From positions 1 to 62,587 of IMG/VR virus record IMGVR_UViG_3300025679_000008: a stretch of DNA of 62,587 nucleotides; one strand, given 5' to 3'. How positions within the stretch are numbered: the first letter of the stretch is position 1; each line of letters opens with the position of its first letter. This document shows, piece by piece, positions 20,622-50,229 of this stretch. Both the position numbers and the translations under genes were made by a program. The stretch comes from a virus. Below the pieces are notes generated by a model. The model ran no database searches. It was given only the letters and a program-made list of their open reading frames with translations, and had not been told where the DNA came from.

Positions 20622-20840
20622 ATGGCTACCATCGTACGCAAGGCCCTGTTCGTCCAGATCCCCGAGAAGGAGCACAAGAAGGTAACTGACGAGTGCAAGC
20701 GCCTGGAGATCCCGCAGTGGCAGTTTATCGCGCACGCCATCCGCCATGCACCGAAGCTCACCAGGGGAAAGGGTGACGCGGCCCACGTCATCGTGTCGGG
20801 TCTCGAGCCGCGGAATCGCAAGAGCATCGGGCGTGGCTAA
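20622..20840 (+). CDS. Small basic regulator-like protein (72 aa)
   Basis: The ATG at 20622 opens a 72-residue protein with ALFVQIPEKEHKKVTDECKRLEIPQWQFIAHAIRHA, which resembles the helix-turn-helix end of small ribbon or RHH-type regulators, but I cannot identify the family. The best ribosome-binding site (AGGAGG at 20575-20580) is too far upstream, so the start is uncertain. The final 8 bases overlap the glycosyltransferase start. Confidence 0.55.
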   Translation: MATIVRKALFVQIPEKEHKKVTDECKRLEIPQWQFIAHAIRHAPKLTRGKGDAAHVIVSGLEPRNRKSIGRG

Positions 20841-32220: not shown

Positions 32221-32345
32221 TGCCCGAGCTTTTCCTACCTGAAGTAGAGGTATCCCTGGATCCCAGCGAGACAGGGCTGCACGGCTGCCTAGAGCCTTTG
32301 CTCGACGATCCACCTGAAGGAGAGGAAGACGATGGCGAAGATTGA
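32220..32345 (+). CDS. Small acidic protein (41 aa)
   Basis: The ATG (32220) overlaps the ATP-grasp gene stop as TAATG. The 41 residues are strongly acidic (EVEVSLDPSETG, DDPPEGEEDDGED) and end in frame with the start of the giant protein 13 bases into it. Whether it is translated is unproven; it may serve as a leader. The acidic composition is unlike the surrounding basic proteins. Confidence 0.45.
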   Translation: MPELFLPEVEVSLDPSETGLHGCLEPLLDDPPEGEEDDGED

Positions 32346-35300
32346 TTGCCCGAATATCAGCCTGCCGGCCTGGAAGGGCCTGGTCGACCAGTTGGGCCCC
32401 GAGAAGGCCTATGCCGCCTATTTCCGTAACGGCAACGAGATCCCGGACCTGAGCAAAGCCCATAATGACCTGAGCAGCCGGCCCGGATCATACAACGGGC
32501 CGGCGGACGCGCGGCCGGTTGAGGAGCAGTACAAGGGCCTGCCCGCGTCTAAGGGAGGGAAATATATCTCAACCGACGTGGCCCGCAGGATCATCCCTGG
32601 CTATGATCCGATGAACCCCACGGCCACCAACGGTGTAGCCTCGGAGATCACCGAGAAGGCTTACACCCAAGCCCTGTCAGACCAGACCACCAAACAGGTT
32701 GAGATGTTTGCCGGAGGATCCGGATCGGGTAAGTCAGGAATGCTCGCGAAGATAACCGCGCCCAACACCCTCATCTACGACGGCCTGTTCTCGAGCAAAG
32801 ATTCCCTCGACCGTCTCGATCGTACGGTGGCCACGGGAAAGCCGGTAGCGCTCACTTATATCCACCGTCCCATCGAGGATGCGATCGGCGGTATGTTTCG
32901 GCGCGCGCGCAAGGATGGGGCCACTCAGCCGATCGTACCGGCCGACGTCGTCGCCAAGGGGCATTTCAACTCGGCCGATAACTTCCTTCAGGCTTACGAT
33001 AAATATAAGGACAACCCCAACGTGAGCTTCCGGGCGTTTGACAATGGCCGCGGAGAGGGTAAGGCTGACTTTGCCGATAGCCCGATCGACTTCGTAAGGA
33101 AGCTGGTGGCTGACCGGCCATCCCGAGAAGAGTATTATGAACGTGCCCGATCCCATCCTGAAGTCCCAGGCCTCTCCGACGCCGACCGAGCAACATACCT
33201 CGGAGCTAGACCCGTTCGGGAAGCTGCTCCTGGACAGCCTGAACAAGGCAACGCTGGAGGATCCGTCCCCGACGTACCCGGAGCGCCAGGTGATCGTCCC
33301 GCCGGCGACGTAGCGCCTGGCGTTGACACGCCCGCGCCAGCGGACCAGCCTCCGGCAAATGCACCACAAGCACCCACTCAAGGCGGCGGTGAAGCATCAC
33401 ACGATGGCGGCCGCGCCGGTGGATCGGCACGCGGTCAACCCGACAGCGAAGGGAACGCCGGCGTTCCAGGCGGCCCACACGGGGAGACCCCAGGGGTACT
33501 TCAACCAGGGCCAGCAGCCGGGCCGGGCAGCCTCGACGCTTCAGAACGATCCGACGTCCGATCCGGCGCAGTAAGCGGGGCTCCTGGGATATCACCAAGG
33601 AGCGTAGCCGGCGGGGTTCCAGTCGTCGAGTTCCCTGTCGAGAAACTCAAACTCTCGAAGGACGTACCCCAATTCAAGGCGAACGCCAATGAGCGGGGAG
33701 TTGTTGAGCCGCTGGCAGGATCCTACGATCGCCGCGGCGGTGGGGCCCTGCAGGTATGGCAGCGATTGAACGGGGATTACGAGGTCATCTCCGGAAGGCA
33801 CCGTTTTGACCTGGGGCTGCGGACAGGGGAGAAGACCCTGCCGGTCCAGATATATAGGGAGTCCGAGGGGTTTGACAAGATGTCGGCCGCGCGATTGGAT
33901 GCGGAGCTAAATATACGGGACGGAAATGGATCAATCGCCGACTACTCCAGCTACTTCAGGCACTCCGGCATCACCGACGCGGATGCCCAAGCCCGCGGAC
34001 TTCTGGCGCGAACAAAGGGCAAGACCGGATTTCAAATTGCGCGAGACTCGAGCGAGGACACTTTTGCTCTCCATCAGGCCGAGCGCCTCTCAGACGACGC
34101 AGCCAGCTCCATCTCCCGCGCCGCGCCCGGTGACGCAGGCCTCCAGGGCGTAGGCGCCAGGGCGGTCCTCGAGGGCAAGTCGGCCGCCTTCGCTGAGAAC
34201 CTGGTCCAGGCGGCCCGGCTGCGCTCCGGTGGATCCTCGGGAGCTGAGAGCGGCGATCTCTTCGCCTTCGATGATTCGGCGATGAAGGAGATGGAGGCCC
34301 AGGCCAAGCGCGCCCAGCAGGCCCAGCAGGCCATACGGGAGCAGATCTCGGCCGCCCAGGGCGCCGCCAGGAATCCCGTCATGGCGAAGAAGCTCGGGGT
34401 CGACGTGAAGGATCCGGCGGCCGTGCAGGGCAGGATCAACAAGCTGAAGGCCGACCTCGAGCGCTGGCTGCATTGGCCGACCCAGGAGGACCTGGTAGCC
34501 AAGACCCGGGATCCGATGTTCGACCCCAGGAGCGAGACGGCCGCCTTCCCAGGCCTGGTCTCTGGCCGGGCCGCGGAGGCCTGGGCTGACGACGTCATCA
34601 AGTCAAAGGCCGGTCAGGTGTCCGGCGGCATTGATCCCGAGTACATCGCGGCGTTCGCTATCAAGGGTGCGGCGATCATCGAGCGCGGGATCCGTGACTT
34701 CGCCTCCTGGTCCGCGGAGATGGTGAAGGAGTTTCCGACGCTCACGGCCGATGCCCTGCAGAAGATCTGGGCCCAGGTGAAGGCCAACGGCGCTGAGGTA
34801 CCGGACAATCCCAAGCCGCGGCCGACTGCAGAAGATGGGACTCGCTTCCGCAGCACACCGGACACCGAGCGCGAAGGGCAGCGCGCCGCCGGCGTGGATC
34901 CCACGGTCGATCGGCAGACCTACCAGGTGCGCGCAAAGAGCGAGGCTCGAGCGGCCGCGCGGGTCCTGATCGACCTCAGTGGCGCGGAGAAGGCCCGGGA
35001 GATGTCCAGGGATCCGGACTCGCAGCTGCCTCAGGATATCCGCGGTGGTATCTTCATTGAGCTCGCGGCCGATGCCGACAAGCGGATCCGGGAGGCCAAG
35101 AAACCCGAGGAGCGCGCGGCCGCGATCCGCGACCGCCAGGCCTTGAGCTCGAGCGAGGCTGTCGAGAATACTGGCCTCGGCCAGAGGATCTCCATGCTGG
35201 GGGAGCTCAACAAGAACACCCGCGCCGGCGTCACCCAGGAGTACCTGGACCAGACCGATCGACGCCAGCAAGGGGAGTTCGGCCAAGACGGTCAGAAGGC

Positions 35301-38049
35301 CGCCGGCGACTTCGCGAAGGCCACGAACGATATCAACGCCGGCGCCGTGGACCCGGCGATCGCCGCGGTGAAGCCCAGGATCGCAAAGGTGAAACTCAGC
35401 GGGCCGATCTGGGACAAGTACCGGGAGGATGCCGCCACGCGCCTTGCGGATCTCGTGGAGTCCAAGGCCGAGCCCCCGAAGGATAAGGCTCCCCTGCAGG
35501 AGTTCACCCAGCGCATCGTTGAGGAGATCCGCGGCCGCATCAAAGGCCTGCTCCCGAACAAGGAGCCGGTTGAGTCCGCCTCGCCGCTCGCCATCCTGGC
35601 CGAAGCCATGCGCAACCCGGAGAAGTACAAGCAGGTGGTGGACTCGGTGCGCAAGGAGTTCGTCGATCGCTTCGGTGAAGGCAGCCCGCCGGTCGACCTG
35701 ATCGACACGGAGCTGGGCAACATGGATCTGAGGCCGTACTCCAATCGGATCCTCGACCAGGTCACACGCCAGGCCCACGAGGAAATGCAGACCTCGGTAG
35801 CGAAGATCGCCCGCACACACTGGACAAAGGCGGACCGAGTCAACCGGGATCTTGCGGAGGCTCTCGTGACCGGCCTGAGGCTGAAGCCGGAGGATGCTCA
35901 CATGCTGGCCGATGACCTGCAGAAGAGGATGGACGAGCTCACGCAGGCGGCCAGGTCCAAGGCGATCTGGCAGCTCATCGAGCGCGCCCAGACTCCGCGG
36001 GCTAAGAAGATCCTCTCCACGCTCGAGAAGACGGTGAATCTAAACAACCTGGGCGCGCTCACCGAGGCCACGGCCAGGGACGCCGTGGCGAAGCAGCTGG
36101 GCCTACCTCACGTGGACAGCGCGGATCTCGATCGCCTGGGGCAGCTGGCAGACAAGGTCGAGACCGCTCCGAATGTCGCGGCGAAGGCCCGGGCGACGAT
36201 CAACCTGGCCAAGGAGCTCCGAGACCTGCAGCGGCCGGGAAAGTGGAAGGATGCGATAGACACCGGGTTCTCGATGCTCTACGCGAATCTCCTCTTCTCG
36301 AAGACGATCGCCGTGAAGTCGATCGCCGACGTGACGAACACGATCTCGCGCGTCGGCTCGGCCGCCCTGGCGAATCCTCTGGACGCCGGCACTGTCGTAC
36401 ACGCCTGGCTGGACAGCATGGGCATGGGATGGGAGCAGGCGAAGTCCGTGATCCAGCGCGGCAAGGGCGGCGCCGGCTACTCTCCAGAGATGGGCGGGTA
36501 CCGATCGGCCGGCTCGGATCCCTGGCATCTCAGCGGCCTCGAGGGGAAGAATCTACCCCTGACCGGCGGCCGCGTTCCGCTCCCGCACAAGTACGTCCCC
36601 CGGATCTACAAGGCGATCGAGTCGATCTTCTACTACCCCGCGCGAGAGGCCTACGCTCGCCTGGTGGCCACGAAGCTCCTGCAGAAGGATGGGTACCGCG
36701 GAGCGGAGCTCCGGCGCAAGGTGCGCGATACGCTCGGGATCTCCCCGGACCAGTTCCAAAACTTCCGGCTGCAGGCGGAGCGCGAAGGCTTCACTGGCGA
36801 CGACGTGGGCCTGCGGGTCGGCAGCCTGGTTGAGCAGCACCGGGTCAAGAACGCGCCGGAGGCCTCGGATCAGAGTCAGAGGTTTGCCGAGGAGACGGTC
36901 TTCAAGCAGGAGCCGAAGGGCATCGAGGGTGTGATCTACCGCAGCGGCCGCGACCTGGCGTCAAAGGTCACGATCGCCGGCGTGCCGGTCCTCAAGCCAT
37001 TCATGCTCTTCATGAAGATCCCGACGAACGCCTTCTCGATGTCGGCGGAATACACTCCGATCGGGATCAAGCGGGCGCTCATGGGGACCAGGGATGCCGG
37101 CACCGGCGAGAGGATCCCGCCGACTACCCAGGAGAGAAACCAGATGCTCATCCGCGGCACCGCGGGATCCCTCATGATGGGGGCGCTGGTGGCGGCCGTG
37201 GTCAACAAGAGCAACGACGGGCACTTCGATGTCACCGGCCGCGGGCCCAGCCAGCCGAACAAGCGCAAGCAGCTGCAGCAGGCCGGCTGGATCCCGTATA
37301 GCTTCCGTGTCGCCGGCGGGCCCTATATCAGCTACGCGCATAGCCCGCTCATGATCCCGCTGTCGTTTGTCGGCAACGTGGCGGACATGTACCGCTATGA
37401 GAAGGAGACGCCGCAGTCGGACTACCTCATGGGCTCGAGGCTGGCTCAGGCCGGAATGCGATCTGGATTCTCGGTCCTGGATCTCCCGATGCTTCAGGGC
37501 ATGTCCCAGCTCCTCGACGGGATCCGCGGCCGCTCGAGCGTCGCAACCTTCAACCGTTTCCTCGCCGGCACGGCAACGTCGACGGTCCTGCCGAAAGGCC
37601 TCATGGAGATCGACCAGGCCTTCGACCCGAAGGAGTACGATCCCACGCCCGGGCGCCTGGGGCAGCTCGAAAGCCAGGTCCCGTTTGCCCGGCGCCTGGG
37701 CGAGCAGCAGCTCGGGCCCACAGGCGAGCCGCTGACCTATAGCCCTATCCAGAGATTCATGAGCCTCGAGGTACCGGGGATCGCAAAGACCCTGTCAGAC
37801 AAAGGGGTCTTCATCACGAACGAGCCGCGGCCGTCGATAGGTTCGGGCAACTCCAAACGCCCGGCCACCGCGGCCGAGTACCAGCGCTACCAGAAGGAGG
37901 CCGGCGCCGAGATCCTCGAGAAGATCCGCGGCGCCATGCCGGAGTTGAATGGCATGGACCAGAAGCGGGCACAGGAGCGCGTGGACCAGATCGTCCGAGA
38001 TGCCAGGTACGCCGCCCGGATCAACCTGGAGAACGCCGGCACCCCTTAG
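32332..38049 (+). CDS. Giant polyvalent ejection protein with zeta-toxin-like and ParB-like domains (1905 aa)
   Basis: A 1905-residue protein, ribosome-binding site GAAGGAGAGGAAG. Residues 1-300: nucleotide-binding, zeta-toxin-like, P-loop GGSGSGKSG at 127-135. Residues 300-425: Gly/Pro-rich linker. Residues 430-600: ParB-like domain (VVEFPVEKLKLSK, VISGRHRFDLGLR). Residues 620-1250: long helical rod. Residues 1550-1745: LPD38-type region (KIPTNAFSM, TGRGPSQPNKRKQLQQAGWIPYSFRVAGG). LPD domains mark large polyvalent proteins that phages and other elements inject or carry. It lies between the terminase and portal genes, so it is probably a virion protein ejected with DNA, carrying enzymes into the host. 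Confidence 0.82.
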   Translation: MAKIDCPNISLPAWKGLVDQLGPEKAYAAYFRNGNEIPDLSKAHNDLSSRPGSYNGPADARPVEEQYKGLPASKGGKYISTDVARRIIPGYDPMNPTATNGVASEITEKAYTQALSDQTTKQVEMFAGGSGSGKSGMLAKITAPNTLIYDGLFSSKDSLDRLDRTVATGKPVALTYIHRPIEDAIGGMFRRARKDGATQPIVPADVVAKGHFNSADNFLQAYDKYKDNPNVSFRAFDNGRGEGKADFADSPIDFVRKLVADRPSREEYYERARSHPEVPGLSDADRATYLGARPVREAAPGQPEQGNAGGSVPDVPGAPGDRPAGDVAPGVDTPAPADQPPANAPQAPTQGGGEASHDGGRAGGSARGQPDSEGNAGVPGGPHGETPGVLQPGPAAGPGSLDASERSDVRSGAVSGAPGISPRSVAGGVPVVEFPVEKLKLSKDVPQFKANANERGVVEPLAGSYDRRGGGALQVWQRLNGDYEVISGRHRFDLGLRTGEKTLPVQIYRESEGFDKMSAARLDAELNIRDGNGSIADYSSYFRHSGITDADAQARGLLARTKGKTGFQIARDSSEDTFALHQAERLSDDAASSISRAAPGDAGLQGVGARAVLEGKSAAFAENLVQAARLRSGGSSGAESGDLFAFDDSAMKEMEAQAKRAQQAQQAIREQISAAQGAARNPVMAKKLGVDVKDPAAVQGRINKLKADLERWLHWPTQEDLVAKTRDPMFDPRSETAAFPGLVSGRAAEAWADDVIKSKAGQVSGGIDPEYIAAFAIKGAAIIERGIRDFASWSAEMVKEFPTLTADALQKIWAQVKANGAEVPDNPKPRPTAEDGTRFRSTPDTEREGQRAAGVDPTVDRQTYQVRAKSEARAAARVLIDLSGAEKAREMSRDPDSQLPQDIRGGIFIELAADADKRIREAKKPEERAAAIRDRQALSSSEAVENTGLGQRISMLGELNKNTRAGVTQEYLDQTDRRQQGEFGQDGQKAAGDFAKATNDINAGAVDPAIAAVKPRIAKVKLSGPIWDKYREDAATRLADLVESKAEPPKDKAPLQEFTQRIVEEIRGRIKGLLPNKEPVESASPLAILAEAMRNPEKYKQVVDSVRKEFVDRFGEGSPPVDLIDTELGNMDLRPYSNRILDQVTRQAHEEMQTSVAKIARTHWTKADRVNRDLAEALVTGLRLKPEDAHMLADDLQKRMDELTQAARSKAIWQLIERAQTPRAKKILSTLEKTVNLNNLGALTEATARDAVAKQLGLPHVDSADLDRLGQLADKVETAPNVAAKARATINLAKELRDLQRPGKWKDAIDTGFSMLYANLLFSKTIAVKSIADVTNTISRVGSAALANPLDAGTVVHAWLDSMGMGWEQAKSVIQRGKGGAGYSPEMGGYRSAGSDPWHLSGLEGKNLPLTGGRVPLPHKYVPRIYKAIESIFYYPAREAYARLVATKLLQKDGYRGAELRRKVRDTLGISPDQFQNFRLQAEREGFTGDDVGLRVGSLVEQHRVKNAPEASDQSQRFAEETVFKQEPKGIEGVIYRSGRDLASKVTIAGVPVLKPFMLFMKIPTNAFSMSAEYTPIGIKRALMGTRDAGTGERIPPTTQERNQMLIRGTAGSLMMGALVAAVVNKSNDGHFDVTGRGPSQPNKRKQLQQAGWIPYSFRVAGGPYISYAHSPLMIPLSFVGNVADMYRYEKETPQSDYLMGSRLAQAGMRSGFSVLDLPMLQGMSQLLDGIRGRSSVATFNRFLAGTATSTVLPKGLMEIDQAFDPKEYDPTPGRLGQLESQVPFARRLGEQQLGPTGEPLTYSPIQRFMSLEVPGIAKTLSDKGVFITNEPRPSIGSGNSKRPATAAEYQRYQKEAGAEILEKIRGAMPELNGMDQKRAQERVDQIVRDARYAARINLENAGTP

Positions 38050-38086: not shown

Positions 38087-40150
38087 ATGCCCCGTACGAC
38101 AAACTTCGTCCTGAACCAGGAGCAGGAGAATCGGCTGACCCAGTTCATCGACAACAAGTACGAGGCGCTGAAGCAGGATAACCTCGAGCGCCTGGTCCTG
38201 GACGCCCAGGCCTGGAAGCGCTACAACCTCGAGGTCAAGGAGCGGGATTCGCTCAACCAGGAGATCTACAGCCTGTCGAATATCCCGGTGCCGGTGTACG
38301 CGATGATCATGGAGCATTTCGTTTCGCGCTCCGAGGACTCGACCACTGGCGACAAGCCCTACTTCCATTTCGACGCCGTCGGCGGATCCCAGGATCGGGC
38401 GATGGCCTATGACCGGTACTTCAACTGGAAGCTCGATGAGATGGGCCGGGTCCACGAGTCCCTCCAGGATGACCAGCTCCCCACCTTCATCCAGTGCGCG
38501 AGCTTCCTGAAGGCGGTATTCAAGCGGGAGACGATCGGATGGATCGACCACGACAAGCAGGTCCTCCACGATCGGAACACGAGGCAGCCGATCGAGATCC
38601 TGAATCACGGGCCGATAATCAAGGACGAGGACGGATTCACGCCGCAGCTGGATCCCGTTGGCGGCATCCGCGGCGCCTTCGGGGCGAAGCCTGAGGAGCG
38701 CCTCCATCTCAACGCGGATCCCACGTTCGTCATGGACGAGTCCAAGCACTACTGGGACAAGCCGCCGGCGGGGCTCAAGCGGACGGAGAACATCTACACC
38801 GGGGCGAAGAGCGAGAACATACCCTACGATCGGATGCTCGCCCCGATGGATGCCGAGTCCTTCGATGCGGCGGACACGGTGATCGAGATCCAGGACCGGG
38901 ACTTCAACTGGTTTCAAAATAACTGGATCGAGAGACCGTTCCTCAGGTGGGCGGATTTCGTAGGCAAGTTCAGCATCGGCGACACCACGTCGAAGGCAGC
39001 CAAGGACAGCCCGACCCAGAGCACTCAGACCGGCACCGTTACCCCGGTGGCCAACGACACGGTCAATCCCGTGCGCAAGGTCTATGAGTGCTGGATCCGC
39101 CGTGACGTAATGGGCAACGGGACACTGCCACCCCAGGACTTCGTTTGCTGGTACGACGTGGAGACCAAGGTGCTCGTGTACTACGAGTGGTTGGCGAAGG
39201 TCTGCCCGGACATGAAGCGGCCGTACACGGTCACGGCTATCCGCAAGATGCCGAAGCGCTGGTGGGGAAAGAGCATCTGGCAGGTGGGTAAGCCTATCTT
39301 CGAGTCGATCGACCGCCTGTTCAACGGCGAGTTCTTCCGCGCCATCCAGCAGGCCAACCCCCCGAAGGGCGGAGATCCGAACGCCGCGGTCGAGGAGCCG
39401 CGGGACATCGGCGCGGATCCCACGAAATACTGGGAGCTGAAGAAGGGCCGCAACATCAAGGAGCTCCTCGAGTACGCCACAGTCCCGGATACCAACGCCC
39501 GGAGCCAGATGATCCTCGAGTACCTGGTGTACTGGCTGCAGCTGTGGCTCGGGATCTCGAACCTGGCCCAGGGCGACTACCAGGCGGTCAACACGAACGC
39601 CACGAAGTACGGGATACAGAAGACGCTTGCGGAGAGCTCGATGCTCGGCCGGCGCTGGATCCGCCGGCTGATCTCATCCTGGGAAGAGCACATCACGAAG
39701 CTCGTCCTCATCACCGTTCAGACGCTCCCGCAGAACCAGAAGGAAACCTACGAGTACACCGAGGGTGACCAGCGCAAGAGCGCGCTGATCCAGGCGATCG
39801 ACATCAAGCAGCTGACGATTCACGTCTCGATAGTCATGGGCCAGAACCAGGAGGAGAAGGACATCGAGCGGGCCAAGACCGCCCTGGACGTCCAGGAGAA
39901 ATACTTTGGGCAGATCAACCCGCAGGTCCGGCTTGTCATGCGGCCGCTGCTCGTGGAGATCCTGGGCGACCTGGGGTACGACAATCCCGAGGACCTGCTA
40001 CCGATCACTGCGGCGCTGCCCGTGGATCCGGCGATGCTGGGCGGCGGCGAGGGTCAGCTGCACAAGGCCGTGGCTGTCGCCGCCGGCGCCGCGGATCCCA
40101 ACTCCGGGGTGCCGATCCCTCAACCCCCTGAAGCCGGAGGCAAGAAATGA
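38087..40150 (+). CDS. Portal protein (687 aa)
   Basis: The N-terminal YALKQDNLERLVLDAQAW and NIPVPVYAMIMEHFVSR segments, then the long alpha-beta middle and PFLRWADFVGKFSIGD, VYECWIRRDVMG and KRWWGKSIWQVGKPIFESIDRLFNG, follow a portal pattern. The C-terminal half (YWLQLWLGISNLAQGD, GRRWIRRLISSWEEH) supports it. The usual alternative, a tail-hub protein, lacks the helix-rich C-terminus. It is 687 residues, large as in N4-like podoviruses. Unusually it is about 11 kb downstream of the terminase. Confidence 0.85.
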   Translation: MPRTTNFVLNQEQENRLTQFIDNKYEALKQDNLERLVLDAQAWKRYNLEVKERDSLNQEIYSLSNIPVPVYAMIMEHFVSRSEDSTTGDKPYFHFDAVGGSQDRAMAYDRYFNWKLDEMGRVHESLQDDQLPTFIQCASFLKAVFKRETIGWIDHDKQVLHDRNTRQPIEILNHGPIIKDEDGFTPQLDPVGGIRGAFGAKPEERLHLNADPTFVMDESKHYWDKPPAGLKRTENIYTGAKSENIPYDRMLAPMDAESFDAADTVIEIQDRDFNWFQNNWIERPFLRWADFVGKFSIGDTTSKAAKDSPTQSTQTGTVTPVANDTVNPVRKVYECWIRRDVMGNGTLPPQDFVCWYDVETKVLVYYEWLAKVCPDMKRPYTVTAIRKMPKRWWGKSIWQVGKPIFESIDRLFNGEFFRAIQQANPPKGGDPNAAVEEPRDIGADPTKYWELKKGRNIKELLEYATVPDTNARSQMILEYLVYWLQLWLGISNLAQGDYQAVNTNATKYGIQKTLAESSMLGRRWIRRLISSWEEHITKLVLITVQTLPQNQKETYEYTEGDQRKSALIQAIDIKQLTIHVSIVMGQNQEEKDIERAKTALDVQEKYFGQINPQVRLVMRPLLVEILGDLGYDNPEDLLPITAALPVDPAMLGGGEGQLHKAVAVAAGAADPNSGVPIPQPPEAGGKK

Positions 40151-40440
40151 GCACACCGAAGGAAGAGCGAGACTACGTGAAGGACATGGCCGAGCTGCAG
40201 AAGCTCAAGGATTCCGACGGCTGGAAGCTCGTGAGCGCCACCGCCCAGGCTGCGTTTGTTGATTTGACAGCGATCATCCTCGACCCTAAGACCCCGATCA
40301 GCGAAGTCGACGGACTGAGGCAGGCAAGGGGCCGCCTCGAGGAAGACTTCCTTCCAGAAAAGCTCCTAACCAATCTCCTAAAACGAACCAGGCCCGCAGC
40401 TGAGGCTCAAACCCAGCAGGCCTTAGGACGCAAATCGTGA
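40147..40440 (+). CDS. Hypothetical protein (97 aa)
   Basis: Start overlaps the portal stop (ATGA). The 97-residue protein is helical (KEERDYVKDMAELQKLKDSD, GLRQARGRLEEDFLPEKLLTNLLKR) with no recognised domain. It may be a small head-completion or portal-associated protein by position only. Confidence 0.6.
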   Translation: MSTPKEERDYVKDMAELQKLKDSDGWKLVSATAQAAFVDLTAIILDPKTPISEVDGLRQARGRLEEDFLPEKLLTNLLKRTRPAAEAQTQQALGRKS

Positions 40441-40868
40441 GCACCCCTCCGCAAAACCAGGTCAAGTCCTACATCGGGTTCACGCCGACGGGTGGCAACC
40501 CGAGCTATAGGACGCAGCGCTCCAGCGACCAGGGCCGACTCGGCGGCGCCCCGTTGAATATCGGCAACGACCAGGAGGAGATCTCGATCTACGCCTATCT
40601 CTTCCGGAACCTGAATGCCGCGGCCGTATACATCAACATCTTCGCGTTGCCGGCGGAGCAGGTTAAGGCCGGATCCATCCCGATCGGCCGTATAGAAATA
40701 CCTGGCACGTCGAATCCCCCGAACCAGCTGATCGGTCCGATGCTCTTCACGCCGTACTACTACGGCCAGGCGGGTATGTCCATGACCGCCTCCACTATCG
40801 ACGCGGACGGAAGCGCCGTCGGCAACGCCCCCGCATCTCCCGTCTACTTCGAGCTCGTCATCGCCTAA
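40437..40868 (+). CDS. Hypothetical protein (143 aa)
   Basis: Starts with GTG at 40437, overlapping the previous stop. Beta-rich profile: EEISIYAYLFRNLNAAAVYINIFALPAEQV and MLFTPYYYGQAGMSMTAS. It has a jelly-roll-like appearance without a signal peptide, in contrast to the next gene. Possibly a head decoration or connector protein. Confidence 0.6.
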   Translation: MSTPPQNQVKSYIGFTPTGGNPSYRTQRSSDQGRLGGAPLNIGNDQEEISIYAYLFRNLNAAAVYINIFALPAEQVKAGSIPIGRIEIPGTSNPPNQLIGPMLFTPYYYGQAGMSMTASTIDADGSAVGNAPASPVYFELVIA

Positions 40869-40881
40869 CCATCCTCCACCC

Positions 40882-41664
40882 ATGAAAAATCGCCTCCTGT
40901 CCTTCCTGCTTCTCTTCGTCGTCCTGCTCTGCGCCTGGGTCACGCCGGCGCGCGCGCAGCTCACCCCGGTCAACATAACAACCGGCGGCACGTACCCGCT
41001 GACCGCCGGCGAGTTCGCCGTGGTCACGCCGGCTTGCTCCGGCGCCGTCACCTTTATCCTGCCCCTGCAGCCGGTGGGAAGCTCCGCCGTCAAGGTCAAG
41101 AACCAGAGCCAGCAGCAGGATACGATCTCCGGCCCGATCTACTCGACCGGCGCGGTTACGTCGATGTTCCTCAACCCGGGACAGATGGCCACCTTCGACT
41201 CGGACGGCGTCTACGAGGACACCTATCTGCCGCAGAACCTCATCGACACCTACACGCAGCGCCTCGGGGGTTCGGCCTACAATCTCACCGTCACGAACGC
41301 CGCGATCGTCGGCGGCACCACAAGCCCGGTGATCCAGATCGGAAACACCGACGCCGGTTGGTACTGGGTCTTCGCCTCGGTGGTGACCTACAAGAATGCC
41401 GCCACCTATGCCGCGCAGCAGTTCGAGACCTTCCAGGTGTTCCGAACGAACAACACGATCGGCGCGATCGCTGGCACCGGCGTCTCCAATCCTATCGGTC
41501 CGATCACGACGATCACCGACTCGGCCGGGGCGATCACGCTGCCGCCGGTCCTCGTCTACCTGAACGGCTTGGACATCCTCACTATCTACGGCCAGGTGAG
41601 CGCAACGCCGGCGGGCAACATCCAGGTCACGGCAGCGAATATCCTGGCGGTTAGGTGGCAGTAA
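40882..41664 (+). CDS. Exported beta-rich protein (260 aa)
   Basis: The N-terminus MKNRLLSFLLLFVVLLCAWVTPARA-Q is a classical Sec signal peptide with a cleavage site after ARA, so the mature protein begins QLTPVNI. The mature part is beta-rich with NITTGGTYPLTAGEFAVVTP, VKVKNQSQQQDTISG and an LPQNLIDTYTQRLGGSAYNLTVTNA stretch. The gene is followed by a second signal-peptide protein starting at the same stop codon (TAATG). The combination suggests a fibre-associated or host-envelope protein. Export of virion-type proteins is unusual, as phage tails assemble in the cytoplasm. Confidence 0.75.
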   Translation: MKNRLLSFLLLFVVLLCAWVTPARAQLTPVNITTGGTYPLTAGEFAVVTPACSGAVTFILPLQPVGSSAVKVKNQSQQQDTISGPIYSTGAVTSMFLNPGQMATFDSDGVYEDTYLPQNLIDTYTQRLGGSAYNLTVTNAAIVGGTTSPVIQIGNTDAGWYWVFASVVTYKNAATYAAQQFETFQVFRTNNTIGAIAGTGVSNPIGPITTITDSAGAITLPPVLVYLNGLDILTIYGQVSATPAGNIQVTAANILAVRWQ

Positions 41665-44408
41665 TGCGCTGGCTGCGGATAGCAGCGGCCGCGCTCCTGG
41701 GCGCCTGCGTGGCGCGGGCCCAGGTTGTAGTCCCGATCACCGTCACCAAGGCCTCGGGTACGAACGTACTCAACGGGCCGATCGTCATCCAGCCCAGCGG
41801 CACGGGCCTGCAGGCTGGCGTCGGGGCCACGGTTGATTTCACAGGCGCCACACTGTTGGGATTTCCAGGGGGCGGTACCGTGAACACCTTCTCGGCCGGG
41901 ACACTGTCTCCGCTCTTCACTACTAGCGTAGCGAATCCCACGACGGCGCCGGCACTGACATTCAACGCTTCCACCGCTGCTCAAAATGCCGTCCTGGTAG
42001 GCCCTGTCAGCGGCGGCACAGGAGCATACAGCTTCCGGCTTCTACAAGCTGCGGACATCCCGTCGCTATCCTACCAGCCCCTCGCCACGAACCTGACCAG
42101 CCTCGCCGGCCTGTCCTACGCCTCCCTGTCCTTCGTGAAGATGAGCGCGGCCGGCACGTTCTCCCTGGATACAAACACCTACCTGACCTCCAGCACGGGC
42201 GTCTCGTCGATCGCCGGGACGGCAAATCAGATTACCGCCTCTGGTTCCACCGGCTCGGTCACGCTCGCGCTCGCGTCGCCACTCCTCGCTCCCGGACTGA
42301 TAGAGCACACCAACGGCGGCAGCACGACGCCTTCCAGTGTATTTGCCGGAGCTACGACGACCGGCCTTTATTGGGCCAACCCCGGCATAGGGTTCACAGT
42401 GGCCGCAACGAGCATCGGCACTATGACGTCGACCGGCTTGAACGGCATGGCTGTAGGAGCGACGACGGCGAGCACGGGAGCGTTCACGAGCCTGTCAGCG
42501 TCGAGCGGGCTCACCGTGTCGTCGGGGAATGTCGGCATCACGTCCGGCAATGAGACGATCACCGCCGGGAACCTGACTATTTCGGCAGGCACGATCTCCG
42601 CAACTGACGTCTTGACGGTAACCAGTGGCACGACCAACGAGCTTTCAGCAACTATTAACAATTCTTCCACTGTTTCTAGTTTCACCGGGAGCATTAATGC
42701 GGGTTTATTCACGGCGGCTCCTGCGTCTACGAACACCCAGAATTGGACAGCTGGAGCCTTTAATTCCTCTAGTTTGGGAATGGCCGCGGTTGTAGCCAGG
42801 GTGGGATCAAATAGCGCGGCAAGCGGCACCGTCACGATGGCAGCGGCCTCAGTCGCCGTATTTGCGTTTGGTAGCAGTTTAACGACCACAAATTTAATTG
42901 GGTTCTTCAATCCGAGCGGGGCATTAACAAGTACCTTTGGTTCAATTTACGGCGCCTATATCGGCGCGCAGACGGGGACGATTACGAACGCCGTCGGCAT
43001 CGCTGTCGCCACGCAAACCGGAGGGGGCACCGGCAACGCTGACATCATCTTCGGCACCGCAGTCACGCCGTCACTCCCCAGCGGCAACGTCGGCCTCTAC
43101 CAGCAGGATGCCTACGCGAACACCCTTGCAGGTATCACGAATTTCACGAGCGGCACCGCCTCAACGACGACCGGCACAGGCTCAGTCGTTGTCACGGGGG
43201 GCGTCGGCATCAGCGGCGCAGTCAACATCGGGACGACGCTGACTGCGACCGGCGGCGCGTCCTCGCTCGCCAACACGTCCATCGCGGGTGCCGCGGCCAC
43301 GACCGCGTTAACGATCACCCAGACGGCCCGCACGTCCGGTGTGCTCCCTTACGTCAAATATACCATCCCGACCGACACCGCCCAGACCGCCTCCACGGAG
43401 TCGCCTGGGATTCAGGGCGTCACCGGGACGCGGACTTGGGCCACCACGGGCACAGTTGCCCTCCAGCGCGAAATCTACTGGCCCGGCCCGACCTACGCCA
43501 GCGCCTCAGCCTCTCAGACCTTCACCGATGTTTTCAACACCTATTGGGACAAGCCGATTCAGGGGTCGAATGCGGTATTTACTCGGTCTCACACGCTGGG
43601 AGTTGTCGATTCTACGTCGGCGGCTTCGTCGATCACGGGCGCCGTCGTAATCGCTACCACGCTCGGCACGACGGCCACGAGCGTCGGAATTGGCGGGGGC
43701 AACATCAACGCAGGAGGCGGGATTACGGGGGCAACGGTAACATCGACTGGAGCGTTGACTGCAGGGGCGACGGCGATCACAGGAGCAGCAGCAACTACGG
43801 CCCTGACGATAACCCAGACCGCCCGGACCTCCGGCGTCCTTCCCTACATCAAATGGACGATCCCGACCGACACGGCCCAGACGGCTTCGACGGAATCTCC
43901 AGGCTTGCAGGTCGTGACCGGCACGAGGACCTGGGCGACGACAGGCACCGTTGCCCTCCAGCGCGAGAACTTCTTTGCGGGCCCCACCTACGCCAGCGCC
44001 TCAGCCTCTCAGACCTTCACCGATACCTTCACGCTCTATGCCACGCCGCCCGTCGCAGGAGCCAACGCCATCTTCACGCGCGGGCACACGCTCGGCATCG
44101 TGGACCCGACCAGCGCCGCAAGCGCGATCACCGGAGGCCTGGTGGTGGCAACGACGCTCGGCACGGCGGCAACGTCGGTCGGTATCGGCGGCGGCAATGT
44201 GAATGCCGGCGGAACGATCACTAGCGGTACCACGATTACCGCAGGATCTACGATCACCACGGCCGCCGGCGTGACTAACGCTGCCGGCGTCTGGAACCTT
44301 GGAGCCCTTCGCTCGAGCACCGCCCTCGTGACGTCCACAACCCAAGTCATTCAGATTGCCGTGGGCGGCACCCTCTTCTCGCTCATGACCTGCACAACCA
44401 ATCCTTGA
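41664..44408 (+). CDS. Fibre-like protein with N-terminal signal peptide (914 aa)
   Basis: Start ATG 41664 is fused to the previous stop. MRWLRIAAAALLGACVARA-Q is a signal peptide with a cleavage site after ARA. The body has the repeats of phage tail fibres: QAADIPSLSYQPLATNLTSL, VVVTGGVGISGAVNIG, and two 165-residue copies (see repeat entry). The C-terminus ends SLMTCTTNP. It resembles host-recognition fibres, but export across the inner membrane would not fit tail assembly; possibly the start is used differently or the protein is an exported decoy. The central stretch at 42660-42960 has lower GC. Confidence 0.72.
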   Translation: MRWLRIAAAALLGACVARAQVVVPITVTKASGTNVLNGPIVIQPSGTGLQAGVGATVDFTGATLLGFPGGGTVNTFSAGTLSPLFTTSVANPTTAPALTFNASTAAQNAVLVGPVSGGTGAYSFRLLQAADIPSLSYQPLATNLTSLAGLSYASLSFVKMSAAGTFSLDTNTYLTSSTGVSSIAGTANQITASGSTGSVTLALASPLLAPGLIEHTNGGSTTPSSVFAGATTTGLYWANPGIGFTVAATSIGTMTSTGLNGMAVGATTASTGAFTSLSASSGLTVSSGNVGITSGNETITAGNLTISAGTISATDVLTVTSGTTNELSATINNSSTVSSFTGSINAGLFTAAPASTNTQNWTAGAFNSSSLGMAAVVARVGSNSAASGTVTMAAASVAVFAFGSSLTTTNLIGFFNPSGALTSTFGSIYGAYIGAQTGTITNAVGIAVATQTGGGTGNADIIFGTAVTPSLPSGNVGLYQQDAYANTLAGITNFTSGTASTTTGTGSVVVTGGVGISGAVNIGTTLTATGGASSLANTSIAGAAATTALTITQTARTSGVLPYVKYTIPTDTAQTASTESPGIQGVTGTRTWATTGTVALQREIYWPGPTYASASASQTFTDVFNTYWDKPIQGSNAVFTRSHTLGVVDSTSAASSITGAVVIATTLGTTATSVGIGGGNINAGGGITGATVTSTGALTAGATAITGAAATTALTITQTARTSGVLPYIKWTIPTDTAQTASTESPGLQVVTGTRTWATTGTVALQRENFFAGPTYASASASQTFTDTFTLYATPPVAGANAIFTRGHTLGIVDPTSAASAITGGLVVATTLGTAATSVGIGGGNVNAGGTITSGTTITAGSTITTAAGVTNAAGVWNLGALRSSTALVTSTTQVIQIAVGGTLFSLMTCTTNP
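43281..44270 (+). repeat. 495-base direct duplication inside the fibre-like gene
   Basis: The region from 43281 is repeated from 43776 at a spacing of 495 bases (165 codons). Both copies encode I-[AT]-GAAATTALTITQTARTSG, PTDTAQTASTESPG, TRTWATTGTVALQRE, PTYASASASQTFTD and a TSVGIGGGN[IV]NAGG end. A 36-base run covering TYASASASQTFTD is identical in nucleotides. It looks like a recent internal duplication of a fibre domain. Confidence 0.85.
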
Positions 44409-44412
44409 TGCC

Positions 44413-44793
44413 ATGAAAATCATCGCCCTCCTAGTGGCGCTTCTCGCCACCACGCTGGCCTCGGCCGGCCAAACGACTGTCACCAACCCCACCGCGCCGC
44501 AAGCTGCCACGCAGTCCGCAGCCTACCCGTTCCAGATCGTATTCAACATCAATACAACCAACGGCGCGATCACCGCCCTCACGGCGACGGAGTACTTCCG
44601 TACCGATGTTACAGTCGGCGGAGTGGTCACGGCGCAGCCCCCGGCGCCCTTGGCGTTGAACCTCGACTTCCTAGGCACCGGCTCCAAGACGATCACCGTC
44701 CTCGGTCAGACGTTCACCTACGCCCAAGTGTGGACCGCTCTCAATGCCGTGCTCAATCAGGAGCGCACCGCGCAGGTTGCCGCAGGGCCTTAA
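44413..44793 (+). CDS. Exported hypothetical protein (126 aa)
   Basis: MKIIALLVALLATTLASAGQ is a Sec signal peptide, with a likely cleavage near ASA. The mature domain is about 105 residues, beta then helical (FQIVFNINTTNGAITALTATEYF, TITVLGQTFTYAQVWTALNAVLNQE). It lies 4 bases after the fibre-like gene. No known family. Third consecutive exported protein in the run. Confidence 0.7.
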   Translation: MKIIALLVALLATTLASAGQTTVTNPTAPQAATQSAAYPFQIVFNINTTNGAITALTATEYFRTDVTVGGVVTAQPPAPLALNLDFLGTGSKTITVLGQTFTYAQVWTALNAVLNQERTAQVAAGP

Positions 44794-44799
44794 TAGGTG

Positions 44800-44827
44800 T
44801 TGACGCATATATCGGCCTCCATATAGA
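44800..44827 (+). promoter_or_regulatory. Candidate sigma70-like promoter
   Basis: TTGACG at 44800-44805 and TATAGA at 44822-44827 are 16 bases apart. The predicted start of transcription lies a few bases before the ATG at 44836, which would give a nearly leaderless message. It sits in the 42-base gap after 44793. It might drive the lysis-linked genes downstream. Confidence 0.4.
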
Positions 44828-44835
44828 TCGCGGGA

Positions 44836-45276
44836 ATGATCCGATATATTGCTACCCTCGCGCTGGCCCTAACCCTGTCCTTCACCGCCCGCGCTGCCGA
44901 TACGGTCAAGCTGCGGGCCCTCGAGCTGAAGGATCTCTCGGTATCCTTCACGGATCCGACCACCGGACACCAGGTCTCGATCCCCGTTCACTACGCCGAC
45001 CTGGTGCGCCAGGTGCTGCTCACGGCGCCGGCCAACGGCCGCGGCACCGACGACGTGGTCCGCTCCGTCGAGGTCTGGGAGCCGATTAAGAAGATCATCG
45101 ACCAGAAGGGCACCCGGGTCCTGCTCTCGGATTCCGACTACCAGTTTCTCCTCCAGCACATCAACGGCTTCAACTGGGGCGGAGCGCCCGACATCCAGGA
45201 GACGATCGCCGACTTCATCAAGTACGTGCGCGGCCTGAAAGAGGCTGAGTTTCCCGTGTCTGATCCCAAGACCTGA
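44836..45276 (+). CDS. Exported hypothetical protein (146 aa)
   Basis: MIRYIATLALALTLSFTARA-A is a signal peptide with cleavage after ARA. The mature protein is helical-beta: KLRALELKDLSVSFTD, HQVSIPVHYADLVRQVLLTAP and VLLSDSDYQFLLQHINGFN. I do not recognise the family. It precedes a membrane protein and a lipoprotein, so may interact with the periplasmic lysis components. Confidence 0.7.
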   Translation: MIRYIATLALALTLSFTARAADTVKLRALELKDLSVSFTDPTTGHQVSIPVHYADLVRQVLLTAPANGRGTDDVVRSVEVWEPIKKIIDQKGTRVLLSDSDYQFLLQHINGFNWGGAPDIQETIADFIKYVRGLKEAEFPVSDPKT

Positions 45277-45279
45277 GCC

Positions 45280-45480
45280 ATGAACTCCAACCAGCTCCGC
45301 ATCGCCGCAATGGCCGTCTACTTCGTGATTGGTGTCCTCGTTGCGTTGAACGTGCTCACCGAGAAGCAGGGCTTCGAGATCCTGGCGGCCGCGGTCGGCG
45401 CCAAGGAGTTTGGCCAGCAATACCTCACGCCGGCCACCAACCAGCGCACGCCGGACGTTGTACCGCCTAAGGCGCCCTGA
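45280..45480 (+). CDS. Small membrane protein (66 aa)
   Basis: One hydrophobic segment spans residues 8-26 (IAAMAVYFVIGVLVALNVL); the remaining C-terminus (EKQGFEILAAAVGAKEFGQQY) contains a second weakly hydrophobic helix. The size and location fit a class II holin or a small antiholin. Three bases separate it from the preceding gene. Assignment is by position and topology. Confidence 0.6.
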   Translation: MNSNQLRIAAMAVYFVIGVLVALNVLTEKQGFEILAAAVGAKEFGQQYLTPATNQRTPDVVPPKAP

Positions 45481-45490
45481 TCCCTTCCTC

Positions 45491-45904
45491 ATGAAAATCA
45501 AAACCATGCTAGTCCTCGCCGGGAGCCTCGTGCTCGTCGGCTGCGCCGGTATCGCCGCCGCCGAGTCCATCAAGGCCGTCTCCGAGATTGCCGCCACCAA
45601 TGCCGTCCAGAACGGCGACCTGACCGCGGCCCAGCTCTCGACGCTGGCCACGGATCTCGCCGCCCTCCCCCAGACGCCGCTCCCCACCGCGGACAACAAG
45701 CTGATCGCCGGCATCATCACGCAGGCCACGAAGCACAAGGCGGCCACGCCGACCGATGCGTCGGTGGTTGACGCGCTCAACGGTGTGCTCGGGGATATCC
45801 AGGGCAGCCGGCCGCCGACTCCCGCCGACGGCATCGCCTGGGCGAACCTTCAAGACGCCGTGCTAGGCTTCAAGAAGGCCGGTACGTTGCTCGCCACGCC
45901 GTAA
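45491..45904 (+). CDS. Small lipoprotein (137 aa)
   Basis: MKIKTMLVLAGSLVLVGC carries a lipobox LVGC with the acylated cysteine at position 18; the next residue is Ala, which favours the outer membrane. The mature region is helical and Ala/Thr-rich. In phages small outer-membrane lipoproteins next to lysis genes are often o-spanins, though the length is longer than usual and no partner i-spanin is overlapping. Alternative: superinfection exclusion lipoprotein. Confidence 0.7.
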   Translation: MKIKTMLVLAGSLVLVGCAGIAAAESIKAVSEIAATNAVQNGDLTAAQLSTLATDLAALPQTPLPTADNKLIAGIITQATKHKAATPTDASVVDALNGVLGDIQGSRPPTPADGIAWANLQDAVLGFKKAGTLLATP

Positions 45905-45905
45905 G

Positions 45906-46685
45906 GTGCCGGCATCGCCGCTCACGCTTCTTTGCGCCCGGCTCCAGGCGAAAGCCTACGATCCGGGCTTTTTAGCGACTGGTATACAGGATCTCAGCGA
46001 GTTTGGGCTGACCAAGACCCACACTATTTGGGCAGACGATCCGAGGGTTGGAAAGGTCCGCCACGGGCATATCAGCATGGCCGCGTTTGGCGTCACCGGC
46101 ATCCGCGTCTTCTGGACCTTTGACGGCACCCTGGTCCCCAAGGGATCCTTCGTGGAGTGGTTAGATGACTTCGATGTGTTCCTGGTGGCGAGTCCCTGGA
46201 ACCCCGGAGACCGTGTCCACCGGGGCATGCTGCGGTTTTTCCAGAGCATGAGCGTGGTCGACGACGCCACGGGGGTTGAGCTCCCCATCCTGGACTTCAT
46301 TGCGGCCAATCCTGGGCTCGCCAAGGGGGCCATCTACACCGGCCATAGCCTTGGGACCTTCACGGCGACATGCGCCTGCCTGGAGGGTTCCGGGGGCGCC
46401 CTGATCCTCTTCGCGCCGCCCAGGCCTGGGGACAAGCCCTTCCGGGAGTCGGTGTTCAATGCTCTGCGGGACGCCGGCGGGATCCTCGAGAGCTACGCCA
46501 ACCCCAACGACGCGGTCCCCAGGGTGCCGATCACCCTCAACTACCCCTGGCACTTCTTCGACTTCTGGCCGGTCGTCGACTCGACCCATCTGCGGCCGGA
46601 TCTTGTGGATCCTCCCATCCCCTCGGACTGGGCCTCGAGCCATCACATGCCCAACTACCTGGCGCTCCTCGAGGCGATGCCCTGA
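45906..46685 (+). CDS. Lipase class 3-like alpha/beta hydrolase (259 aa)
   Basis: The fungal-type class 3 lipase plan is visible: TFDGT (71-75, oxyanion region), VHRGMLRFF (104-112), GHSLG with the nucleophile S148, FAPPRPGD, NPNDAVPRVP with D202, and H246 or H247 in SSHHMPNYL. Those are the Ser-Asp-His triad elements in order. It has no signal peptide, so it would need holin or lysis to reach a membrane. GTG start at 45906, 1 base after the lipoprotein. Phage lipases of this class are rare; it could cut membrane or envelope lipids late in infection. Confidence 0.85.
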   Translation: MPASPLTLLCARLQAKAYDPGFLATGIQDLSEFGLTKTHTIWADDPRVGKVRHGHISMAAFGVTGIRVFWTFDGTLVPKGSFVEWLDDFDVFLVASPWNPGDRVHRGMLRFFQSMSVVDDATGVELPILDFIAANPGLAKGAIYTGHSLGTFTATCACLEGSGGALILFAPPRPGDKPFRESVFNALRDAGGILESYANPNDAVPRVPITLNYPWHFFDFWPVVDSTHLRPDLVDPPIPSDWASSHHMPNYLALLEAMP

Positions 46686-46687
46686 GA

Positions 46688-46705
46688 CTACGTCTTTTGA
46701 CGTAG
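46688..46705 (+). terminator. Hairpin after the lipase gene
   Basis: CTACGTC (46688-46694) pairs with GACGTAG (46699-46705) around TTTT. A five-T run begins 8 bases further on (46714-46718), too far for a classical terminator but possible for a weak one. It marks the boundary before the operator region. Confidence 0.45.
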
Positions 46706-46732
46706 CCGCCTAGTTTTTGCATCTTGCACGCC

Positions 46733-46792
46733 TGGGGTGAATACCCCATTGGTGGGGTATCTAAATGTCGCGCTCCCACGCACAATACCCCA
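46733..46792. promoter_or_regulatory. Operator-like cluster, second copy of TGGGGT-N4-ACCCCA
   Basis: TGGGGT-GAAT-ACCCCA (46733-46748) matches the site at 8295-8310 at 15 of 16 positions. It is followed by a half-site TGGGGTAT (46753-46760) and a complementary half-site ATACCCCA (46785-46792), which together form another inverted pair overlapping the start codon at 46765. A regulator binding here could block translation or transcription of the lysis-type gene that follows. Confidence 0.55.
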
Positions 46793-47199
46793 CGGAACGG
46801 GCGTACACGGAACGGGCGTACGAGGCCGGGGTCGTTCGTCGCATGATAGGATCGCGCGGATTCCTGTGGGTCCTGGGCGCCGTCGGAATGGTATTCCTGA
46901 CACTTCTCGCGCTCGGGGCCGAGGCTTGGGTCCAGAAGCAGGCGGCCCTCGCGCCGGAGATCGTCGCTGCCAAGGCCGACGTGGACACCCTGAAGGTGGC
47001 CGTGAACGTCCTCAAGAACCAGTCCGATGCCCACACCAGCCTTCTATCCCAGTCGGCCATCGAGCAGGCCCGGGCGGCCGCCCTACAGGAGAGGATCTTC
47101 ACCGCCATCAAGGGTGTCAGCGACGGCGTTCATGCCCTGGACGTGAAGATCGCCACGGTCGACCAGAAGGTCGATGACTTGAAGGACCAGCGGAAGTAG
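46765..47199 (+). CDS. Membrane-anchored coiled-coil protein (144 aa)
   Basis: A transmembrane helix at about 32-53 (GFLWVLGAVGMVFLTLLALGA) is followed by a long periplasmic helix with heptads (DVDTLKVAVNVLKNQSD, VDQKVDDLKDQ). This is the topology of an i-spanin or a pinholin-like regulator. The ATG at 46765 lies inside the operator cluster, with GGTGGGG as a possible ribosome-binding site. It probably spans the envelope during lysis. Confidence 0.65.
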   Translation: MSRSHAQYPTERAYTERAYEAGVVRRMIGSRGFLWVLGAVGMVFLTLLALGAEAWVQKQAALAPEIVAAKADVDTLKVAVNVLKNQSDAHTSLLSQSAIEQARAAALQERIFTAIKGVSDGVHALDVKIATVDQKVDDLKDQRK

Positions 47200-49243: not shown

Positions 49244-49774
49244 CTACTGGAAGAAGCCCGAGGCGATCGGGTCCAGGTATAGGTTCTCGGCGCGCTGCGC
49301 GTAGTCCCGATCGGCTTCCGTGATGCGGCCGCGCTTGAAGTTGCCGTAGCCCACCTTCCAGATCAGCGCGAAGATATAGGCGGTCCGCGGGGTCTCGAGC
49401 GTCTCCATGCGATCCATGATCCAGGAGGCGTGCTCCTGGAGCACACGCTGCGCCTCTGTCCAATTACGCCAGCTGCGCTCGGAGTACGGCATGTTCTCCT
49501 TGCTGTACTGGTGCCAGGTCGAGGCCTTCATCTGCCAGGGGCCGCGCTCGCCGTCACGGCCGACAGTGCGGCCGTCCCAATCCTCGACCTTGTCGATCGC
49601 CTTCAGGAGGTACTTGGTACTGAGCAGGCGGTAGGACGCCGGCGCCGGCCGCATGAGATCGAGATCTCGGGCGTACGCCGGCTTCGGGAGGAACGTGAGG
49701 ATGACGAATACGACAAGCGCGATCGTCATTACCTCGAGGATGTAACCTAGGTTTTCGGTGCTCATGGGTTTCAT
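49244..49774 (-). CDS. Transglycosylase-like endolysin with signal anchor (176 aa)
   Basis: The ATG 49774 is chosen because it overlaps the upstream stop (ATGA). A hydrophobic segment at about 11-34 (YILEVMTIALVVFVILTFLPKPAYA) is a signal peptide or signal-anchor. The body has AIDKVEDWDGRTVG and GERGPWQMKASTWHQYS, matching the lysozyme-like/SLT pattern with E64 as likely catalytic acid and a GPWQ motif. Such phage enzymes cleave peptidoglycan. Its presence in the early leftward operon, far from the holin, is unusual. Confidence 0.75.
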   Translation of the reverse strand: MKPMSTENLGYILEVMTIALVVFVILTFLPKPAYARDLDLMRPAPASYRLLSTKYLLKAIDKVEDWDGRTVGRDGERGPWQMKASTWHQYSKENMPYSERSWRNWTEAQRVLQEHASWIMDRMETLETPRTAYIFALIWKVGYGNFKRGRITEADRDYAQRAENLYLDPIASGFFQ

Positions 49775-50229
49775 GGGAGGATCTTCTGCCGTTGCCAGCC
49801 ACCAGCGGCCTTGTCCCACCAGACCAGGTAGAACATGCACCAGGTATGGATCCTGGCGGCAACCTTCAGGTTCTCGAATCCACCGCGGAAGGCGTGGGGG
49901 CCTTTGACCTCGTAAGCCAACGCGAACTTACGGTTGGTGCCGAGATGAATGATGGCATCCGGGATGAAGAAATCGGGCTTGTACCAATGGCCGCGGGCCA
50001 GCTCGAGGCGGAGAGCCTGGCTGTAAATGGTGAGATCCGCGTAGTCGACCTTCAGCTTCTCCAGGAAGCGCTCCTCGAGCTTATTGAGTACCGGCTTCTG
50101 GGACTGGCTCAGGCGCTTGTTCTCCAGGTAGGGCTGCACTTCAACTTTATCACGAGCCTTCTCGTGATTCAAGATCCTCGCCTGGACATGGAGAGGGAGG
50201 CTGGAAAGCGGTATGCCTGAGTGCTTCAA
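49771..50229 (-). CDS. DUF1064-like PD-(D/E)XK endonuclease (152 aa)
   Basis: TTG start at 50229 overlaps the previous stop (TTGA). Core pattern: RLELARGHWYKPDFFIP with D86, and ALAYEVKGPHAF with E107 and K109, plus E53 in LEERF, as in DUF1064 phage nucleases of the PD-(D/E)XK fold. The C-terminus (MFYLVWWDKAAGGWQ) also fits that family. These proteins may process recombination or branched DNA. Length is full. Confidence 0.82.
   Translation of the reverse strand: MKHSGIPLSSLPLHVQARILNHEKARDKVEVQPYLENKRLSQSQKPVLNKLEERFLEKLKVDYADLTIYSQALRLELARGHWYKPDFFIPDAIIHLGTNRKFALAYEVKGPHAFRGGFENLKVAARIHTWCMFYLVWWDKAAGGWQRQKILP

Follow-up and report, generated by a model that had tools for sequence, protein, structure and literature searches.

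Llp of phage T5 and Cor of phages N15 and phi80 are superinfection-exclusion proteins, that is, small proteins of the envelope that are often lipoproteins. An exported protein, Lom, is encoded within the tail-gene region of phage Lambda (PMC12309495), and the available part of the paper on Xanthomonas phage PBR31 describes the gp40 esterase as carrying a leader (PMC10975493). A full-text search of the open-licence literature returned no report of exported or signal-peptide-bearing tail fibres; this is weak evidence of novelty, and the theme is apparently undescribed. Here we analysed a 62,587-base IMG/VR virus record from a podophage-like virus (IMGVR_UViG_3300025679_000008), the whole of which is referred to as the window. 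Our subject is a block at 40882-45276, situated between the portal gene and lysis-type genes, in which consecutive genes, one of them fibre-like, are predicted to encode exported proteins.

Leader-bearing and fibre-like proteins behind the portal gene

The original prediction had described a run of five open reading frames (ORFs) in this part of the window, and all of them are present, with ATG starts on the DNA at 40882, 41664, 44413, 44836 and 45491 (genes are named by their start, and those between 38087 and 47199 all lie on the plus strand). The Sec leaders that it gave to the first four proteins and the lipoprotein signal that it gave to the fifth were borne out by rule-based calls, shuffled sequences and a lipobox. 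The leader caller was our own rule set, which looks for a charged start, a hydrophobic core and small residues before the cut, and not SignalP. The gene at 40882-41664 encodes a protein of 260 amino acids (aa) with the N-terminus MKNRLLSFLLLFVVLLCAWVTPARA and a cut before Q, its predicted leader occupying 40882-40956 with the cut between ARA and QLT. The fibre-like protein of 914 aa at 41664-44408 begins with MRWLRIAAAALLGACVARA and is also cut before Q (leader 41664-41720, between ARA and QVV); the ATG of its gene overlaps the TAA stop of the preceding one (TAATG). Leaders were further called for the exported proteins at 44413-44793 (126 aa; MKIIALLVALLATTLASA, cut before G) and 44836-45276 (146 aa; MIRYIATLALALTLSFTARA, cut before A). 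The protein at 45491-45904 starts with MKIKTMLVLAGSLVLVG, cut before the C of the lipobox LVGC; the caller assigned it to type I, and the type II reading comes from the lipobox, which was seen by eye.

The calls fell on 7 of the 63 scored window genes, all within 40882-47199. The two beyond the original five, 45280 and 46843, look more like single-membrane-helix lysis proteins than leader proteins. The background was one call among 156 genes of eleven more distant phages, that one being a lipoprotein, and a chance origin of the leaders was rejected on this rate and on their presence in independent genomes. When the first 40 residues were shuffled, none of 5000 shuffles scored as well for 40882, and none of 5000 for 44413, followed by 66/5000 for 44836, 86/5000 for 45491 and 282/5000 for 41664, which is the weakest of the five and whose LGAC is also readable as a poor lipobox. 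Taken alone, the leader of 41664 is the weakest; its case rests on its relatives. The traits of signal peptidase I substrates, namely a positive n-region, a hydrophobic core and small residues at -3 and -1, were found by the rules and shuffles, and the leaders of the exported block are probably cleaved.

Of the two fibre-like proteins originally proposed, 41664 is upheld by module matches, whereas for 40882 the likeness was not confirmed. One fibre module of 41664 is common to a baseplate-bearing phage (L002; 51%, 8e-15) and to an otherwise different record (L003; 60%, 1e-9); these matches came from tblastn only and were not seen by phmmer with the full-length query. A tail protein of Sinorhizobium phage HMSP1-Susan matched 41664 weakly (E = 1). 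The protein thus shares modules with annotated fibres but departs from them in bearing an export signal, which is at odds with assembly in the cytoplasm. The orphan 40882 had no match in INPHARED, IMG/VR, PHROGs or Pfam, nor among the fetched loci, and we could not confirm that it is a fibre. Single-sequence AlphaFold2 gave an unusable model of its mature part (predicted local distance difference test score, pLDDT, of 33) and one too poor for use for mature 44836 (pLDDT 44). Searches of the fetched loci by phmmer with full-length 40437, 40882, 41664, 44413, 44836, 45491 and 45906 found no homologue. Likewise, INPHARED gave no match to megablast of window positions 28001-50000 or to tblastn searches with the portal, 40882 and 41664, and pattern scans of IMG/VR for 40882 and for the portal alone gave none either. 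In Pfam and PHROG, no outer-membrane beta-barrel match of the Lom kind was found for 40882-45276. Because Pfam recognised no surface-anchor domain in the exported proteins, display on the surface fits less well than a protein that is soluble in the periplasm or released.

Leaders in close relatives and in other phage backgrounds

Relatives were found by a head-protein search, which yielded L006, L014 and L015 (heads with 46-48% identity to that of the window), and then, for a wider set, by head and portal profiles. All three carry a leader gene in the same slot, 3' of the portal gene and its small followers. In L006 it encodes 965 aa beginning with MRLIRLIAFLLCSVAANA and cut before QTA; in L014, 276 aa with MRRIAFFIIALVPVLACA cut before APT, with two more leader genes behind it; and in L015, 1011 aa with MKRIATLVLLFIAALTPCFG cut before QRI, a fibre-like protein that contains a GDSL/SGNH hydrolase (PF13472, 1.2e-17). 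The bodies of the three proteins have no detectable similarity to 41664. Homology between the bodies of 41664 and the L006 protein is not claimed, their alignment being without significant similarity. In the portal tree, a branch supported at 93/93 separates the window, L006, L014 and L015 from the rest. Outside this four-phage clade, the slot gene is leaderless in 12 relatives of the neighbouring set and in L088, a more distant branch found in a Verrucomicrobiota genome.

Leader-bearing fibre-like genes were also found in six further phage backgrounds, two of which are cultured phages. A more distant portal relative from a Verrucomicrobiota genome (L090) encodes one whose modules match the tail fibre of a Rhizobium phage and tail proteins of mycobacteriophages. 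In two Mu-like prophages of the same phylum (L098 and L099), the leader gene is situated between the tail-tube region and the tape measure and is additional to the tail-tip genes, and in two siphophage-type prophages, likewise from Verrucomicrobiota (L114 and L115), a leader fibre gene is followed by two more leader genes, making three in a row. The leader gene of L002 lies just 5' of an endolysin gene, read as such from its sequence. Finally, gp19 of Burkholderia phage BcepC6B (YP_024939.1) and gp35 of PBR31 (QIN95346.1) each bear a leader with a predicted cut at about residue 18 and are flanked by a holin gene directly after and, directly before, by a leaderless tail fibre gene in the former and a leaderless tailspike gene in the latter. 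As a separate observation, the L098 prophage has a second leader-bearing protein (L098:14654-15703, minus strand; 349 aa) after a fused protease/head-protein gene. The sampling was uneven: each search covered 388 genomes of a single phylum, and the pattern scans reached some relatives only. The genes of the fetched loci come from our own simple ORF tiling, in which some starts may be off.

The modules and the C-terminal tip (phrog_11393) of the leader-bearing relatives are shared with annotated tail fibres. Homologues without a leader are common for these modules, with 11 in one comparison and, in a second, three fibres of Klebsiella, Pectobacterium and Enterobacter phages (L107-L109); L003, marine relatives and cultured tail fibres all supply examples. 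The leader is therefore an added feature and not a general property of the modules. None of the leaderless homologues tested had a leader at any nearby in-frame start. After the cut, the N-termini of the fibres, compared in pairs, were clearly alike only for L098 and L099. Exported fibre-like proteins were originally called unexpected, and they prove to be real, with the leader kept in 3/3 close relatives and recurring in unrelated phages. Leaders missing from homologues had been named as evidence to the contrary; the closest relatives, L006, L014 and L015, all have them. A check on related fibre homologues gave a divided answer, with leaders in these three and in unrelated phages but not in L003, the marine relatives or the cultured tail fibres.

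The identity of the leader was compared with that of the first 60 mature residues in four close pairs, none of them involving window genes, which lack a close pair. The leader was clearly the faster-diverging part in two pairs, both fibres (50% against 85% for the L114/L115 fibre and 44% against 65% for gp19/gp35), and about level in the other two, both companion proteins of L114/L115 (68% against 70% for the 296-aa protein and 71% against 73% for the 201-aa protein). Identity over the whole mature protein (89, 59, 82 and 79%, same order) exceeded that of the leader in 4/4. The two fibre pairs behave as a signal peptide that is cleaved should, which supports cleavage but does not prove it. We gave up the proposition that the leader invariably outpaces the mature part in divergence, as it held in 2/4 pairs only.

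A proposed role on receptors and the competing explanations

The block combines leaders, fibre modules, its position, a leader kept while the bodies were swapped, and recurrence in unrelated phages. On this basis, we tentatively favour, with slightly less than even confidence, a late exported cassette at 40882-45276 whose fibre-derived protein acts outside the particle on receptors; 41664 would accordingly be a non-virion protein with a function at the receptor level. The cassette, placed between the portal and lysis genes, would be made late. Its protein 41664, built from interchangeable modules of the virion-fibre type behind a predicted cleavable Sec leader, would be directed by that leader to the periplasm as a soluble protein and not into particle assembly in the cytoplasm. 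There, or once freed by lysis, it would most likely bind the surface structure used as the phage receptor, and in the relative with the esterase domain (L015) the receptor would be chemically altered. The outcome would be less re-adsorption of progeny to debris and less entry of competing phages. Covering or altering a receptor fits the fibre modules, the L015 esterase and the neighbourhood of the lysis genes. It is possible, although we hold this wider claim with a shade more reserve, that several unrelated kinds of phage encode free, Sec-exported fibres that exchange binding parts with virion fibres and occupy or alter receptors outside the particle, the run in the window being one instance.

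Several points weigh against a cassette acting on receptors. The receptor role is drawn solely from domain resemblance, the leader calls depend on a home-made rule, and the survey was opportunistic: guided by matches to fibre modules and by a single bacterial phylum, it provides instances and not a frequency. Signals for outer-membrane export or anchoring were not recognised, leaving a route to the outside before lysis unexplained. Additionally, the leader gene of the window family fills a slot that in relatives is taken by leaderless genes, which may encode true virion fibres. This last point also speaks for the main rival, namely that these are genuine virion fibres, exported to the periplasm and attached late, once holin and endolysin have opened the inner membrane. 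The tips and modules common to annotated virion fibres agree with late attachment, and P22 tailspikes can be added in vitro to finished tailless particles. We nevertheless consider it unlikely, given that in BcepC6B and PBR31 the neighbouring gene is a distinct tail fibre or tailspike gene without a leader, that the Mu-like gene between tail-tube region and tape measure is additional to the tail-tip genes, and that no particle-binding domain was recognised after the cut site. A plain virion fibre without export was rejected, since it leaves the conserved leaders unexplained.

Less probable than late attachment are accessory lysis or envelope-weakening proteins that work in the periplasm against the outer membrane, peptidoglycan or surface polysaccharide. 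The genes do adjoin lysis genes in the window, L002, BcepC6B and PBR31, the L015 protein has its SGNH hydrolase, a class 3 lipase follows downstream in the window, and the PBR31 authors, in the part of their paper available, propose that an exported SGNH esterase helps lysis (PMC10975493). However, no enzyme domain was detected outside L015, a lysis factor would not be expected to have a long, repetitive fibre body, and in the Mu-like prophages the gene sits in the tail module. The hydrophobic N-terminus might instead be a structural or membrane-anchoring segment that is not cleaved, in keeping with the two of four pairs in which the leader is as conserved as the mature start; this is made very improbable by cut sites that have good small residues and frequently Gln just behind them, and by the much faster divergence of the leader in the two fibre-like pairs. 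Wrongly chosen start codons, faulty gene calls or misassembled contigs could be suspected from the Shine-Dalgarno-like sequence missing before most window starts, but an artefact of this kind is already largely refuted by the recurrence of the arrangement in independent records, among them cultured phage genomes whose starts are annotated, and by the leaderless homologues, which gave no leader at nearby in-frame starts.

If the cassette does act on receptors, it would represent a secreted, fibre-derived way to control superinfection or release progeny. The findings suggest that certain annotated tail fibres may lie outside the virion, which bears on host-range prediction and phage annotation, and the cultured BcepC6B and PBR31 make the question testable.

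Neighbouring genes and comparison with known systems

The conserved gene order is anchored by the SU10-type portal protein at 38087-40150 (PF23899, 4.7e-11; 44% identity to the L006 portal), on which the portal tree was built. It is followed by a small gene at 40147-40440 with weak likeness to its L006 counterpart (phmmer, 1.4e-4) and by a small leaderless gene at 40437-40868. Downstream of the exported block lie a single-transmembrane holin candidate at 45280-45480 (weak phrog_565 holin match, E 0.12), the lipoprotein 45491, a class 3 lipase at 45906-46685 (PF01764, 1.5e-5; phrog_21992, 5.8e-8) and an i-spanin candidate at 46843-47199, with a transmembrane segment, a coiled-coil-like part and a leader-like start by the rule-based caller. 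The stretch 45280-47199 most likely consists of ordinary lysis genes. With its lipobox and its position beside holin-, lipase- and i-spanin-like genes, 45491 is an o-spanin candidate and most simply a lysis protein, part of the ordinary lysis machinery. Its original inclusion in the exported run holds as regards the lipoprotein, but it is not part of the puzzle, because lysis-region lipoproteins are ordinary and are present near this place in related phages. In L003, a lipoprotein gene precedes one for a class 3 lipase beside a lysozyme-like gene, and several marine relatives encode, at the corresponding place, a lipoprotein or membrane protein of roughly 160 aa. Those of L069 and L081 combine a lipobox-like start with a second hydrophobic stretch further on, and may therefore resemble a one-piece spanin. 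On the minus strand, the product of 49244-49777 has a hydrophobic N-terminus and a GERGPWQM motif and by eye is lysozyme- or transglycosylase-like, with no Pfam match.

Elsewhere, the window encodes a major head protein (11194-12675, phrog_334), a terminase-like protein (25713-27500) and an internal-virion-protein-like product (32332-38049). A leaderless 885-aa protein with many GSGYTSAP-type repeats (14481-17138) is a homologue of a 398-aa L006 protein (2e-71), a repeat expansion in a probable virion protein. In L015 and L016, a single undivided gene is matched by both 18002-18664 and 19023-20528; the second half of 18002-18664 resembles an extra domain, a similar one being free-standing at L006:2364-2717. 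Glycosyltransferases at 20746-22359 and 8526-9674 (GT9 heptosyltransferase type and GT2) may modify host surface sugars. Most starts between 38087 and 45491 lack a Shine-Dalgarno-like sequence, which would suit a host not dependent on it. The sole link of that host to Verrucomicrobiota is that L015 lies in a metagenome-assembled genome of that phylum.

When compared to known systems, the block shares with Llp and Cor the proposed effect of a protected or hidden receptor, and no sequence link to them was found. Lom is an outer-membrane beta-barrel and not a fibre, in contrast to the window protein. Tail fibre families of the phrog_11393 type have modules and the C-terminal tip in common with the leader-bearing relatives, while their ordinary members are leaderless. 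The gp40-type SGNH esterase of PBR31 is, in the available part of its description, a lysis-region hydrolase that is exported and can be compared with the SGNH domain in the L015 protein, but it is a stand-alone enzyme without a fibre body; that part of the paper makes no mention of gp35 (PMC10975493). The closest parallels are gp19 and gp35 themselves, annotated as tail fibre or structural protein, which resemble the window protein in having a leader, a fibre-type body and a place beside lysis genes. They differ from it in being single, shorter leader genes (269-357 aa) that follow a leaderless tail fibre or tailspike and in having the phrog_11393 tip, which the window protein lacks, and no sequence similarity between them and 41664 was found. 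Across these phage backgrounds, the fibre tagged with a leader looks like a repeated theme.

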